From Candidatus Sumerlaeota bacterium (GTDB lineage: Bacteria; Sumerlaeota; Sumerlaeia; SLMS01): a DNA stretch of 36,746 nt. The notes under the pieces are model-generated. The model saw only the letters and a program-made list of their open reading frames with translations, was not told the DNA's origin and ran no database searches. The translations under genes were made by a program, and so were the position numbers. Where the stretch lies: positions 1-36,746 of the forward strand of contig SLOM01000019.1 of assembly GCA_007132505.1 (NCBI GenBank). Direction: 5' to 3'. Position 1 is the first letter of the stretch. Every line of letters begins with the position of its first letter. Of this stretch, positions 13,856 to 18,014 are shown one piece after another.

Positions 13856-14020
13856 TCGCATGCCGCCTGTGCCCCGCCCGGCACGCCCCCCGCGGAACCA
13901 ACTTAAGCTTGAGCCTGGCTGTGCGGGGGGATTCGCTTCCCTCACTCTTGGAGGAGGCGCGCGATCCGGTCGCCGCGGTTTCCTCCCGGATGACCTCACC
14001 ATAGGAAAAAGGAGACCGTC

Positions 14021-14461
14021 ATGAAGCGAACCATCGCCCTCTTGGCCGGAATGCTGCTCGCCGGAGCAGCGGGTTACGGCGCCGTCCTTGTAAGCGGCCC
14101 GGGCGGCGAGAAACAGCCGGCGGCGACGGAAAAGACCGAAACCAGAGAAGGCTGCCCCACCTGTGCCGGGTGCTCGGGTGCTGCCGGACCAGAGACGGAA
14201 AACCAGGCAGGCCGCCCCTCCGCAAGCGTCATTACCCTCGACGAGGAAGGCCGGCCCACTGCGCCCACCCCGGGACAGATGCGCGGGCTGAGCGTCGAGC
14301 GCGCCCGGACCGTGAGGCCCGTCGAGGTCCCCACCAAGGCGGTGGGGGTCGTGGCCAGCATCGTGGAGGTGGACTCCATTGAGACACGGTCGGTGGCAGT
14401 GGTCGGGGAGGACGGAACGCTGACGGTGCACTGCGAGACCGTCAAGGGGGTGGAGGAATGA
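14021..14461 (+). CDS. Small anchored tri-cysteine protein, copy 1
   Basis: A 146-residue protein of no family I recognise. AAAAAGGAG lies just before the ATG. The N-terminus MKRTIALLAGMLLAGAAGYG is a signal peptide or an uncleaved membrane anchor. A polar linker follows, with a C-x2-C-x2-C motif (CPTCAGCSG, residues 45-53) and a spacer that is poorly conserved between copies. The strongly conserved C-terminal half contains DEEGRPTAP, PVEVP-x-KAVGV, ASIVEVD, IETRSVAVVGEDG and VHCE with a fourth cysteine. The stop codon overlaps the start of the metalloprotease gene (ATGA), so the two are translationally coupled. Possible roles are a propeptide-like inhibitor, an export chaperone or a redox/metal partner for the protease; none is proven. 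Confidence 0.8.
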   Translation: MKRTIALLAGMLLAGAAGYGAVLVSGPGGEKQPAATEKTETREGCPTCAGCSGAAGPETENQAGRPSASVITLDEEGRPTAPTPGQMRGLSVERARTVRPVEVPTKAVGVVASIVEVDSIETRSVAVVGEDGTLTVHCETVKGVEE

Positions 14462-15912
14462 ACGCCTGCGCCTCGCCCTTCCGCCTGATTCTGGCTGCCG
14501 TGGTGGCAATCGGCCTGACGGCTGGTAACGCCTTCGCCCTGGAGATCGAAATTGCTTACGCCGATCCGTCAGGCTACGGCTTCAATGACAACACCCCCTA
14601 CAACGGCGGACCGCAAACCTACGGAGAGGTACGCCGCGAGGCTTTCGAGTACGCCATCGAGTACTGGGAATCCCGCCTTGACGGGACGATCCCGATCCGC
14701 CTGAGGGCGGAGTTCGCCAACCTGGGCGGGGACGCCACGGGCGCCGTGCTGGCCGGTGCGTCAGGGAGATTCTGGGTGCGGTTGACCGGAGACAACAAGT
14801 TCCTGCCCATCCATCTGGTCAATCAGATCGTGGAGAGCGACCTCACTCCCGCGGGCGAATGGGAAATCCGCATCAGGTTCAACGCCGACGTGGACGGCGA
14901 TGTGGCGCTCGGGTCCATGACATGGAACTACGAGTTGGACAGCGATCCGGCCGGCGTGCCCTCCTTCGTGCGGACGACCCTGCACGAGCTTACCCATGGC
15001 TTGGGCTTCGCCGACATGATAAACGAGAATACCGGACAGTGGCTGATTCAGGATCAGAACGACGGCCAGTTCTACCCCTCGGTCTATGACACGCTGCTGC
15101 GCCTTGGCGACTCACCCGGCACCCCGCTGACCAGCCTCTCCAATTCACAACGGCGGGACTCAGTCACCAGCCAGAACCTATTCATCGGGGGGACGAACCT
15201 GGAAGCAGCATTCGGAGGAGACAGGGCGCCCGTCTACGCACCCGAATCCTACGCGCCCGGCTCTTCCGTGTCGCACTATGATCAGGGGGCCTTCAGCCCT
15301 CCGGAGCTGATGGAGCCTGCGCAGACGGATGCGGAAATCCGCCTCGGGCTGGCGGACAAGACGCTCGCCGACTTCGGGTGGGAACTGCTCGGCCCGGATG
15401 TCCTGCCTGCTCTTACTTTTGACTCGGCCGGCCCCGTCAGCGTGGACGAGGGGCACAGTTTTGACCTCGTGCTGGAGCTCGACGGTAGCGCCACGGACCA
15501 GACGGTCACGTTCCAGATCCGCCAGTTGGGGGACGCGGAGGAGGGCGTGCACTACACGCTGGGCACGGCGTCGCCCTCCATCACCCCTCCGGACACGTCC
15601 ACAACGGTGACGGTGAACACCATCGCGGGCTCGCTGGACGATTCGCCCGTGAGCTTCGAATTCCAGCTCATCCGCGTGGTGAATGCGGAGTTCGGCAGCA
15701 CGCGGACCGTTTCCGGCACCATCGAGCCATCGGCCGAGGAGTACGACATCCCACCCGCTGCCCGCGCCATCGGCGATTTGAATAACGACGGGTGCGTGGA
15801 CTTCCAGGACTTCGCCTTCCTCCTTGAGAACTGGGGCACGGAGTTCGACGGCAATCCGATCGCTTTCGCGGATTTCGTCGCCCTGCTCGAAAATTGGGGA
15901 ACCGGATGCTGA
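14458..15912 (+). CDS. Secreted zinc metalloprotease with Calx-beta-like and dockerin-like C-terminus, copy 1
   Basis: A 484-residue protein whose ATG overlaps the upstream stop. The signal peptide runs to about residue 28 (ending NAFALEIEI). The catalytic motif is H176-E-L-T-H180-G-L-G-F. There is a second conserved site SHYDQGAF (His273) followed by ELMEP (Met285), an arrangement like leishmanolysin-type (M8-like) metzincins where the third zinc His is far downstream and is followed by a Met-turn; Asp186 right after the motif is the other possible third ligand. Residues about 310-425 resemble a Calx-beta domain (SVDEGHSFDLVLEL, EEGVHYTLG). The tail has GDLNNDGCVDFQDFAFLLEN and a half-repeat ADFVALLENWGTGC, a dockerin-like module with one intact calcium loop. 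This is probably an extracellular protease; the substrate is unknown. Confidence 0.85.
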   Translation: MNACASPFRLILAAVVAIGLTAGNAFALEIEIAYADPSGYGFNDNTPYNGGPQTYGEVRREAFEYAIEYWESRLDGTIPIRLRAEFANLGGDATGAVLAGASGRFWVRLTGDNKFLPIHLVNQIVESDLTPAGEWEIRIRFNADVDGDVALGSMTWNYELDSDPAGVPSFVRTTLHELTHGLGFADMINENTGQWLIQDQNDGQFYPSVYDTLLRLGDSPGTPLTSLSNSQRRDSVTSQNLFIGGTNLEAAFGGDRAPVYAPESYAPGSSVSHYDQGAFSPPELMEPAQTDAEIRLGLADKTLADFGWELLGPDVLPALTFDSAGPVSVDEGHSFDLVLELDGSATDQTVTFQIRQLGDAEEGVHYTLGTASPSITPPDTSTTVTVNTIAGSLDDSPVSFEFQLIRVVNAEFGSTRTVSGTIEPSAEEYDIPPAARAIGDLNNDGCVDFQDFAFLLENWGTEFDGNPIAFADFVALLENWGTGC

Positions 15913-16089
15913 CGGCACCACCTCCGGCATAAGGCCGGACACCCCGCGGGAATGCAGGACCACCGCCCCGGGACACCTCCGCCGTCGCTCCAGGCTCGGG
16001 GGATACCCGGGGCGGACTGCTTCTTGGAGCTCGCGATGCCCGAAAGTCTACCTTCTGTGATCATCTTTAGCTTGAGATACCCTAGCCTC

Positions 16090-16106
16090 TTGGCTTTGGA
16101 ATTGCA
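16090..16106 (+). promoter_or_regulatory. Candidate sigma-54 promoter upstream of duplicated unit 2
   Basis: The sequence TTGGCTTTGGAATTGCA has the GG and GC pairs separated by exactly ten bases, as in -24/-12 promoters (TTGGC ... TTGCA). The middle of the -24 half (CACG) is not conserved. The start would fall near 16118, giving a 70-base leader before the tri-cysteine gene. No counterpart with this spacing is seen before unit 1. No rpoN or enhancer-binding protein gene is in the window. Confidence 0.35.
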
Positions 16107-16187
16107 TTGTGGAAAGGATGTTGGCGGGTCTCCCCCTCCCCCTCCCCTTTTCCCGACAATTTCATCCTACAAAAGAAGGAGGCCACC

Positions 16188-16628
16188 ATGCAGCGAACCA
16201 TCGTCCTTGTGGCAGGATTGGCGCTTGCCGGAGTCGCCGGCTATGGCGCCGTCCTTATAGGTTCCCCGGGCGGCGAGAAACAGCCGGCCGCTGCAACGAA
16301 AACCGAAACCAGGGAGGGTTGCTCCACCTGCGCACGGTGCTCGGGCGGGGCTGGCGAGGAAGCGGAGGGCCGGAAGGATGGCTCCGCCGCCAGCGTCATT
16401 GCCCTCGACGAGGAGGGCCGGCCCACAGCTCCTGCGGCGGGGCAAATGCGCGAATTGCGCGGCGAACGCCTGCGAACCGCCAAGCCGGTCGAAGTACCCG
16501 CCAAGGCGGTGGGCGTGCTGGCAAGCATTGTCGAGGTGGACTTCATCGAAACACGATCAGTGGCCGTGGTCGGCGAGGATGGCAATCTGAAGGTGCACTG
16601 CGAAATCGTGAAGGAGGTGGAGAAATGA
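16188..16628 (+). CDS. Small anchored tri-cysteine protein, copy 2
   Basis: The ATG at 16188 follows AAGAAGGAGG by five to six bases. The protein is 146 residues, the same length as copy 1 and alignable without gaps. It keeps the hydrophobic N-terminus (MQRTIVLVAGLALAGVAGYG), the C-x2-C-x2-C motif (CSTCARCSG), DEEGRPTAP, PVEVP-x-KAVGV, IETRSVAVVGEDG and VHCE. Divergence concentrates in the linker after the cysteines (residues about 54-66). Conservation of the cysteines and the C-terminal half through an old duplication implies selected function. It overlaps the second metalloprotease gene by ATGA. Function unknown, presumably as a partner of that protease. Confidence 0.8.
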   Translation: MQRTIVLVAGLALAGVAGYGAVLIGSPGGEKQPAAATKTETREGCSTCARCSGGAGEEAEGRKDGSAASVIALDEEGRPTAPAAGQMRELRGERLRTAKPVEVPAKAVGVLASIVEVDFIETRSVAVVGEDGNLKVHCEIVKEVEK

Positions 16629-17932
16629 ACGGCACCTCCTTTTTCCCGCGCGTGCTGCTTGGCGGAGCGGTGGCATTCGGCCTCGCCGCCGGCAGCGCCC
16701 ACGCACTGGAGTTCGAAATCGAGTACGCCGATCCGGCGGATTACGGTTTCAACGACGACACACCCTACAACGGCGGCCCGCTAACCTACGGCGAGGTACG
16801 CCGCGAAGCCCTGGAGTATGCCATCGAATATTGGGAGTCGCGGATAGACGGCACAATCCCGGTCCGCCTCAGAACCTATTTCGACGATCTGGGTGGAACG
16901 GCAACGAGCGCCGTGCTGGCCAACGCCACACCGAGATACTGGGGAAGAGTAAACGAGGATGACAAGTTCCTTCCCCTTCACCTTATCAACCAGATGCTGG
17001 ATGTGGACAACACCCCGGCCGGCGAGTGGGAAATCCGGATCATATTCAATGCCGATATAGACGGAGACACCGTGCTCGGTGAAATCACGTGGAACTATGA
17101 ACTGGATAGCGACCCCACCGGGGTCCCCTCCTTCGTGAGGACCACGCTGCACGAACTCACCCACGGCATGGGCTTTGTAGACCTTATAGACGAGGACACC
17201 GGCGAGTGGCTGCTGGAGGATCCGAATAACAACGAGTTCTATCCCTCGGTGTTCGACACATTGCTTTACCTCGGAAATGATCCCGGAACTGCTCTGACAG
17301 CCCTTTCCGACGCCCAACGCCTGGACTCGCTCACAAGCGAGGATCTTTTTATCGGCGGGACGAACCTGGAGGGCGCCTTCGGTGATGAGAGGGCACCGAT
17401 CTATGCTCCGGACCCGTATGAGCTCGGGTCCTCCATCTCCCATTACGACCAGGGAGCCTTTGATCCCCCCGAGCTGATGGAACCCGCCCAAGTGGACGGG
17501 GAGGTCCGCTTGGGGTTGGCGGACAAGACGCTCGCGGACTTTGGATGGGGGCTCCTTGGCCCCGAGTATATGCCAAGCCTGACCTTTGACAGCGCCGGAC
17601 CCATCAGCGTGGACGAGGGAGAAAGCTTCGACCTCGTCTTTGAGCTGAATGGCGGCGCCACGGACCAAACGGTGACGTTCCTCCTCCGCCAGCTCGGGAA
17701 CGCAGAGGAGGGTGTGCACTATACGCTTGAGACAGCTAACCCCTCCATCAACCCGCCGGGCACATCCACCACTATCACCGTGGAGACCATTGCAGACTCC
17801 GTGGGAGAATCAGCGGTGGACTTTGAATTTCGGCTTATCAGGGTTGTGAATGCGGAGTTCGGCGAGATTCGAAGGTTTTCCGGCAGCATTGAGCCAGTCG
17901 AAACCCATATACCGGACTGGTACTTGTTCTGA
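16625..17932 (+). CDS. Secreted zinc metalloprotease without dockerin-like tail, copy 2
   Basis: A 435-residue paralogue of the protein at 14458-15912, starting at an ATG that overlaps the preceding stop. A signal peptide ends near GSAHALEFEI. The active site is H176-E-L-T-H180-G-M-G-F, with SHYDQGAF (His273) and ELMEP (Met285) at identical positions to copy 1, and Asp186 is also kept. The Calx-beta-like region is present (SVDEGESFDLVFEL, EEGVHYTLE). It ends after SGSIEPVETHIPDWYLF and lacks the roughly 48-residue dockerin-like tail of copy 1, so it may be freely released where copy 1 is retained, or the reverse. A strong palindrome follows, 33 bases after the stop. Confidence 0.85.
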   Translation: MNGTSFFPRVLLGGAVAFGLAAGSAHALEFEIEYADPADYGFNDDTPYNGGPLTYGEVRREALEYAIEYWESRIDGTIPVRLRTYFDDLGGTATSAVLANATPRYWGRVNEDDKFLPLHLINQMLDVDNTPAGEWEIRIIFNADIDGDTVLGEITWNYELDSDPTGVPSFVRTTLHELTHGMGFVDLIDEDTGEWLLEDPNNNEFYPSVFDTLLYLGNDPGTALTALSDAQRLDSLTSEDLFIGGTNLEGAFGDERAPIYAPDPYELGSSISHYDQGAFDPPELMEPAQVDGEVRLGLADKTLADFGWGLLGPEYMPSLTFDSAGPISVDEGESFDLVFELNGGATDQTVTFLLRQLGNAEEGVHYTLETANPSINPPGTSTTITVETIADSVGESAVDFEFRLIRVVNAEFGEIRRFSGSIEPVETHIPDWYLF

Positions 17933-17964
17933 CGCGAGGCTGCTCTTGGTAACTGCACCATCCT

Positions 17965-17990
17965 CCCCCGCCGGGCATCCCCGGCGGGGG
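17965..17990. terminator. Bidirectional terminator-like hairpin between convergent genes
   Basis: A perfect 11-bp stem CCCCCGCCGGG / CCCGGCGGGGG with a CATC loop lies between metalloprotease 2 (ends 17932) and the convergent transglutaminase gene (ends 18015). ATTTG follows on the plus strand and AGGA on the minus strand. The position and symmetry fit a shared terminator, though T tracts are short. Confidence 0.7.
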
Positions 17991-18014
17991 ATTTGCATTC
18001 AGCGGGGAGTGCCC

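Follow-up and report, generated by a model that had tools for sequence, protein, structure and literature searches.

A Small Protein Encoded Ahead of a Secreted Metalloprotease

What is the role of a small exported protein whose gene lies immediately ahead of that of a secreted metalloprotease? The question is raised by a stretch of 36,746 nucleotides, here called the window (contig SLOM01000019.1 of Candidatus Sumerlaeota bacterium, part of a 3.46 Mb metagenome assembly, genome G000). Two head-to-tail units of two genes each lie on its plus strand (14021-15912 and 16188-17932), and each encodes an exported protein of 146 residues, which we call the partner, followed by an HExxHGxGF protease. 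In both units the ATG of the protease overlaps the stop codon of the partner gene as ATGA. An earlier note on this DNA had described the duplicated module, and its coordinates, lengths, motifs, ATGA overlap and gap-free colinearity through the Calx-beta-like region agree with our analysis. We found that the partnership is ancient and near-obligate and extends across many bacterial phyla. The partner domain was previously known by name only, and the function given here is newly proposed: we lean towards a detached pro-domain that would hold the protease latent, its conserved cysteine being the likely zinc switch in trans.

Pairing Across Genomes

A profile built from 11 Sumerlaeia small proteins matched 51 of 4,969 open reading frames (ORFs), called in this analysis, in 80 loci from other genomes (one of the 51 matches belongs to a training genome). 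Fifty of them were adjacent to the protease or fused with it by rule, and the 51st (L091) was seen by eye to lie directly upstream. Later profiles were trained partly on the matches described here; neither the first-pass profile nor the model NF047450 of NCBIfam, to which the partner is related below, was.

Across 196 Massilia-family genomes, each of the 41 NF047450 matches immediately preceded a same-strand protease, with 21-164 bp between the two matches. Conversely, 46 of the 47 proteases in these genomes were partnered, 41 by an NF047450 match and five by a divergent upstream protein (E values of 2e-5 to 5e-3) ending in VVVQHS or similar; for the remaining protease, in G108, no partner was found within the stretch read. 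Among 247 Acidobacteriota genomes, every partner match with E < 1e-4 was paired (36 of 36; 35 by search and one at a contig end where the start of the protease is visible). Five weaker matches (E of 1e-4 to 1e-3) were unpaired and are probably due to chance. The Acidobacteriota proteases were partnered in 38 of 46 cases, counting two divergent partners found by inspection; of the eight others, one stands where its contig begins. For the rest, a more distant group with no partner match, the profile match covers mostly the part from position 42 onwards, and the one that was checked is NF038122-like. In 40 genomes selected for carrying the protease, 33 of 35 above-cut-off partner matches were adjacent to it by coordinates. 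Orphan partners with no adjacent protease were seen once each in G088 and G086, both of which have proteases elsewhere.

The expectation that the small protein always precedes this protease was borne out by the 41 Massilia-family matches, and all 36 strong Acidobacteriota matches were paired. The proposal that the protease retains the small protein as an obligate partner survived an attempt at refutation in two samples that had not been chosen for the partner, and natural fusions of the two genes agree with it.

Natural Fusions and a Shared Predicted Fold

In Blastocatellia-type Acidobacteriota and in one Lysobacter, the protease itself begins with the partner domain, both being encoded by the same ORF (10 of the 80 loci). 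Nine fused proteins were included in the protease tree and form one clade (100%). The proteases of the Sumerlaeia genomes G009-G011 also carry N-terminal extensions, and in L023 the extension gives a clear match to the partner profile (28 bits), which makes it a well-supported candidate for a second, independent fusion. AlphaFold2 predicted the split domain with a predicted local distance difference test score (pLDDT) of 86.5 and the fused N-terminal domain of L046 with 85-94, the whole L046 protein reaching a predicted template modelling score (pTM) of 0.85. Both models show the same order of elements, namely a helix, four strands and a helix.

The Partner Family and Its Conserved Residue

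The 11 Sumerlaeia small proteins, both window copies included, could be aligned (alignment A2) and have in common a D..G....P motif, a C-terminal DG and one invariant Cys, with G77, G132 and C138 invariant throughout. The NF047450 pattern of D..G....PT, DG and a C-terminal Cys is present, and the fuller motif reads GL.....P.GG..VDLxGRF.....A.i..DG.....C. By profile and alignment the partner belongs to NF047450, a family named "post-PEP-CTERM-1" without a function: in an alignment of 55 partner domains, 49 match this model at E <= 0.01, that of Massilia horti at 1.5e-28. The window copies do not reach the curated cut-off of 28 bits (copy 1, Table 1; copy 2 is unlisted), and they are tied to the family because intermediates share one alignment with them. 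One such intermediate is the small protein of SKW162 (relative G033, a Candidatus Sumerlaeaceae member of the window's class), which at 33.4 bits lies above the cut-off. No Pfam family covers the partner, either in 55 members or at E <= 10 in seven full-length proteins, and its sequence profile matched no solved structure. In three Duganella loci (L102, L110 and L114), a PEP-CTERM-like segment (PVPDTVALLCLGLVVLLGTGRSRRRW) precedes the domain in an ORF of about 350 residues, an arrangement that may account for the name in NCBIfam.

The C-x2-C-x2-C motif that the earlier note had taken as the defining feature of the small protein is limited to the two window copies among the aligned proteins, and the family hallmark is instead a lone Cys close to the C-terminus (C138). 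As a family metal or redox motif the tri-cysteine is ruled out, being absent from the other relatives aligned. The L013 and L135 partners have Cys-rich N-termini that are unrelated to it.

The column of the conserved Cys holds Cys in 53, Glu in five and His in three of 65 split partners, with four others, and Cys in all 10 fused forms read; neither Ser nor Ala was seen there. When five His-type partners of the Massilia family were included, the protease tree indicated at least three origins for His and at least two for Glu, and L163 provides a further His-type partner. A disulfide between partner and protease is impossible in the Sumerlaeaceae locus L012 because its protease has no Cys, and as a general role of the conserved Cys it is ruled out at least for this protease. 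The exchange among Cys, His and Glu, taken together with the Cys-free protease, fits a putative metal ligand. In matrix metalloproteinases (MMPs), astacins, myroilysin and mirolysin, the zinc-blocking residue of the pro-segment likewise differs between relatives, and in both the astacin and the MMP family some members have a cysteine switch and others an aspartate switch (PMC6949598, PMC9629494).

A Leishmanolysin-like Protease

Its motifs and profile matches mark the protease as a metzincin similar to leishmanolysin (M8) and akin to the NCBIfam family NF038122 (metallo_LGF). In the window proteases, HELTHGxGF is followed about 90 residues on by an invariant GSS.SH and then by ELMEP...LT..DxGW. 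Together these make up the M8 arrangement of HExxHxxG, a distant His as the likely third zinc ligand and a conserved block after it. A profile of 18 relatives found leishmanolysin (1lml) at E = 4e-5 through the HExxH and GS..SH..ELM.P..LT..DLG blocks, and a second profile did so at 2e-4. The gathering score of Pfam PF01457 (M8) was not reached; of the 18 sequences a single one matched, at E = 0.002. All 31 proteases of alignment A4 match NF038122 at E <= 1e-3, below its cut-off of 80 bits in the window copies (39.6 and 33.9 bits) and in the best member shown (L046, 67 bits). The order of elements in the AlphaFold2 model of the protease is compatible with the metzincin helix-strand order as read; Foldseek gave no metzincin. 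The M8-like protease loci span at least eight named phyla.

We found no paper on the partner-protease pair in the literature searched, nor any mention of NF047450 or NF038122 by accession or name. The remark that no system of this composition had been described therefore holds for the pair and needs amending for its parts, since NCBIfam already has names for the partner domain (NF047450) and for a related protease (NF038122). The name of the NF047450 model gives no function and does not mention a protease.

A Detached Pro-domain as the Favoured Reading

Leishmanolysin has been reported with a cysteine-switch pro-domain. The window protease resembles it in HExxHxxGF, in the distant third His within GS..SH and in the ELM.P..LT..DLG block; unlike in leishmanolysin, the proposed pro-domain is here usually a separate gene and of a different family, and the two proteases align over short stretches only. 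We lean towards the detached pro-domain because of the adjacency of the two genes, the Blastocatellia fusion, the shared predicted fold, the conserved residue and the class of the protease. From these we infer partner binding, protease latency, zinc ligation and a foldase role, which could be combined as follows. The partner gene would be translated first, with the protease coupled to it via the ATGA overlap. The partner domain, with its predicted helix, four strands and helix, would be exported and probably held at the membrane, where it would bind the M8-like metzincin in trans while the protease leaves the membrane. It would keep the protease latent until release and probably aid its folding, and the conserved C-terminal Cys (His or Glu in some lineages) would most likely sit on the catalytic zinc, as in the switches of metzincin pro-domains. 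The earlier options of inhibitor, chaperone or substrate adaptor would thus narrow, from the first two, to a detached pro-domain. More tentatively, we suggest as a possibility that the latency of widespread M8-like proteases is maintained by a pro-domain that has its own gene and offers Cys, His or Glu to the catalytic zinc, and that at least one lineage has joined both genes into an ordinary zymogen.

Several observations weigh against a detached pro-domain that acts as a zinc switch. In most of the N-terminal extensions of Sumerlaeia proteases (L016, L017, L024, L025), the partner profile gives a weak match or none, and the C-terminal Cys is missing; the partners of L061, L117 and L075 have neither Cys, His nor Glu at the conserved position, and that of L056 is without this end. 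In the predicted models the conserved Cys lies within a strand and not in an extended loop. Most proteases other than that of L012 have 2-4 Cys, so that a disulfide is excluded in some pairs only. Two Foldseek searches with the predicted models returned noise only, with no match in the PDB better than E = 0.9 for the confidently predicted, metzincin-like model. Because noise was obtained even for the well-predicted protease, we regard Foldseek as uninformative here and not as a sign of a new fold.

The detached pro-domain has partial parallels among other metzincin systems. The partner would act much as does the periplasmic serralysin inhibitor AprI, which has its N-terminal residue placed on zinc (PMC4070987). 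Serralysin and AprI/Inh are similar to the window pair in that a small exported protein is encoded beside a secreted metzincin; they differ in that the conserved residue of our partner lies near the C-terminus. The Pfam Inh domain had no match in the 55 partner members, nor at E <= 10 in the seven full-length proteins. We know of no fusion of AprI with a protease. The partner also shares with cysteine- and aspartate-switch pro-domains a single conserved residue whose type varies between relatives. Such switches act in cis, within the zymogen, whereas the partner with its putative zinc ligand is mostly a separate gene product.

A pure foldase or secretion chaperone akin to the membrane-anchored lipase foldases, needed by the protease for folding or export and not inhibiting it, is in our estimate an unlikely alternative, the Cys being then structural or redox-active. 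The upstream gene order with its overlap would suit such a role, as would the N-terminal hydrophobic anchor of many partners, and the N-terminal fusion is compatible with an intramolecular chaperone; the repeated change from Cys to His and to Glu, however, favours a metal ligand over a structural thiol. Pro-domains often both inhibit and fold their proteases, and a foldase is thus as much a sub-case of the detached pro-domain as a rival to it.

The partner might instead be a dedicated substrate or released effector of the protease, a reading suggested by Listeria, where the metzincin Mtz is proposed to cleave and free its lipoprotein partner Tim (PMC8235301). There too, a secreted metzincin gene stands beside that of an exported small protein, and Tim has been proposed to resemble a metzincin inhibitor (PMC8235301). 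In contrast to the window pair, the Tim gene follows that of the protease and Tim is a lipoprotein that is cleaved free; the likeness between the two systems is one of layout. Many partners appear membrane-held, with linker-like regions ahead of the conserved domain, as a substrate might be. Fusion in front of its own protease would not be expected of a substrate, however, and conservation resides in the C-terminal, Cys-bearing domain rather than in the linker, so that we consider this role improbable. A surface adaptor or sorting accessory without effect on catalysis (for instance in PEP-CTERM/exosortase anchoring) would agree with the name of the NCBIfam model and with the Duganella ORFs, but is the least probable role and a very doubtful one, as in phyla distant from Massilia the partnered proteases include some with other C-terminal ends (a dockerin, a W-x-L-Y tail) and the domain is fused beside the catalytic domain in Blastocatellia.

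If the detached pro-domain proves correct, post-PEP-CTERM-1, a curated domain family hitherto without a function, would gain one, together with a one-to-one link to a large family of secreted metzincins that is itself uncharacterised. Split and fused pro-domains with Cys, His or Glu, which form a natural series, would then bear on how zinc-switch latency evolves and whether it can act in trans.

Duplication, Selection and Age

The two partner copies are 73% identical and the two proteases about 72%, the latter without gaps up to where the Calx-beta-like region ends. The ratio of nonsynonymous to synonymous substitution rates (omega) between the copies is 0.19 for the partner and 0.15 for the protease, at a synonymous divergence (dS) of about 0.9-1.3. 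Both genes are therefore under purifying selection, which answers the call for a comparison of their substitution rates. As had been claimed, the C-terminal half is the best-conserved part of the small protein (77.5% identity and omega 0.14, versus 66.7% and 0.26 for the N-terminal half).

In a tree of 74 proteases, the window copies are sisters against all sampled relatives (100% by the Shimodaira-Hasegawa-like approximate likelihood ratio test, SH-aLRT) and group with Sumerlaeota and one Omnitrophota sequence. Because of this fully supported sister relationship, we consider the duplication specific to the window's lineage. The view that the partner has been kept with the protease through an old duplication thus stands in its first part and is corrected in its second: it is the pair itself that is ancient, far older than the duplication in the window. 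In one genome of the same genus (G001, 88% complete), neither gene was found and the matches were to dockerin-like domains only. Two tandem partner-protease modules also occur in Bryobacterales F-183 (L092; G080:C1:896086-900747).

Protease C-termini and Further Features

The two window proteases differ at their C-termini (Table 1). The dockerin-like domain of copy 1 (residues 426-484, about 59 residues), which copy 2 does not have, did not reach the Pfam Dockerin_1 cut-off (14 versus 22.9 bits) and is weakly related to the GC-type dockerin of NCBIfam (E = 0.34). At least two dozen more such domains ending in GC occur in the window's genome, and they are present in G001 as well. The DWYLF end of copy 2 resembles the W-x-L-Y ends of most Sumerlaeia relatives. 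A W-x-[LM]-[YF] tail, which could be a sorting tail, is found in most Sumerlaeia proteases (alignment A1) and in an M23-peptidase protein of G015 (L138:11255-13336). As a general sorting signal W-x-L-[YF] is not established, occurring in one of 281 sampled ORFs in G015.

Two unusual protease architectures were observed. ORFs of more than 1,800 residues in L044, L045 and L057 carry repeated M8-like protease domains amid DUF11-like repeats, and no partner was found for them. Some proteases of Acidobacteriota (L099, L108, L111; G082:C16, G084:C38, G084:C49, G085:C244) may be M8-like enzymes in circularly permuted form: in them the third-His block (GSS.SH..LMEP..LT..GW) stands ahead of the HExxH part in the same ORF and the partner gene still lies upstream.

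Table 1. Positions of the two modules and their sequence features in the window
Feature	Position	Strand	Basis
Shine-Dalgarno-like AGGAG ahead of partner gene copy 1	14010..14014	+	read from sequence
Partner copy 1 (P0001, 146 residues), N-terminal signal/anchor, then NF047450-type domain	14021..14461	+	NF047450 E = 0.003, 18.3 bits
C45-x2-C48-x2-C51 (CPTCAGC), partner copy 1	14153..14173	+	sequence, alignment
C138 of partner copy 1, conserved Cys of the family, putative zinc ligand	14432..14434	+	alignment
M8-like (leishmanolysin-like) metalloprotease copy 1 (P0002, 484 residues)	14458..15912	+	NF038122 E = 6e-10, below cut-off; 1lml E = 4e-5
HELTHGLGF zinc-binding/catalytic motif, protease copy 1	14983..15009	+	sequence, alignment
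GSSVSHY, protease copy 1, invariant His as likely third zinc ligand	15259..15279	+	matches leishmanolysin GS..SH
Dockerin-like C-terminal domain ending in GC, protease copy 1 only	15733..15909	+	sequence/profile comparison
Shine-Dalgarno-like AAGGAGG ahead of partner gene copy 2	16176..16182	+	read from sequence
Partner copy 2 (P0003, 146 residues)	16188..16628	+	alignment
C45-x2-C48-x2-C51 (CSTCARC), partner copy 2	16320..16340	+	sequence, alignment
C138 of partner copy 2, conserved Cys	16599..16601	+	alignment
M8-like metalloprotease copy 2 (P0004, 435 residues), ending in PDWYLF, without dockerin	16625..17932	+	alignment
HELTHGMGF motif, protease copy 2	17150..17176	+	sequence, alignment
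GSSISHY, likely third zinc ligand, protease copy 2	17426..17446	+	sequence, alignment
Terminator-like hairpin 3' of copy 2	17964..17991	+	consensus match only

The neighbours of the module are ordinary genes, encoding an S13 D-Ala-D-Ala carboxypeptidase, a TgpA-like transglutaminase, IF-2 and DnaK.

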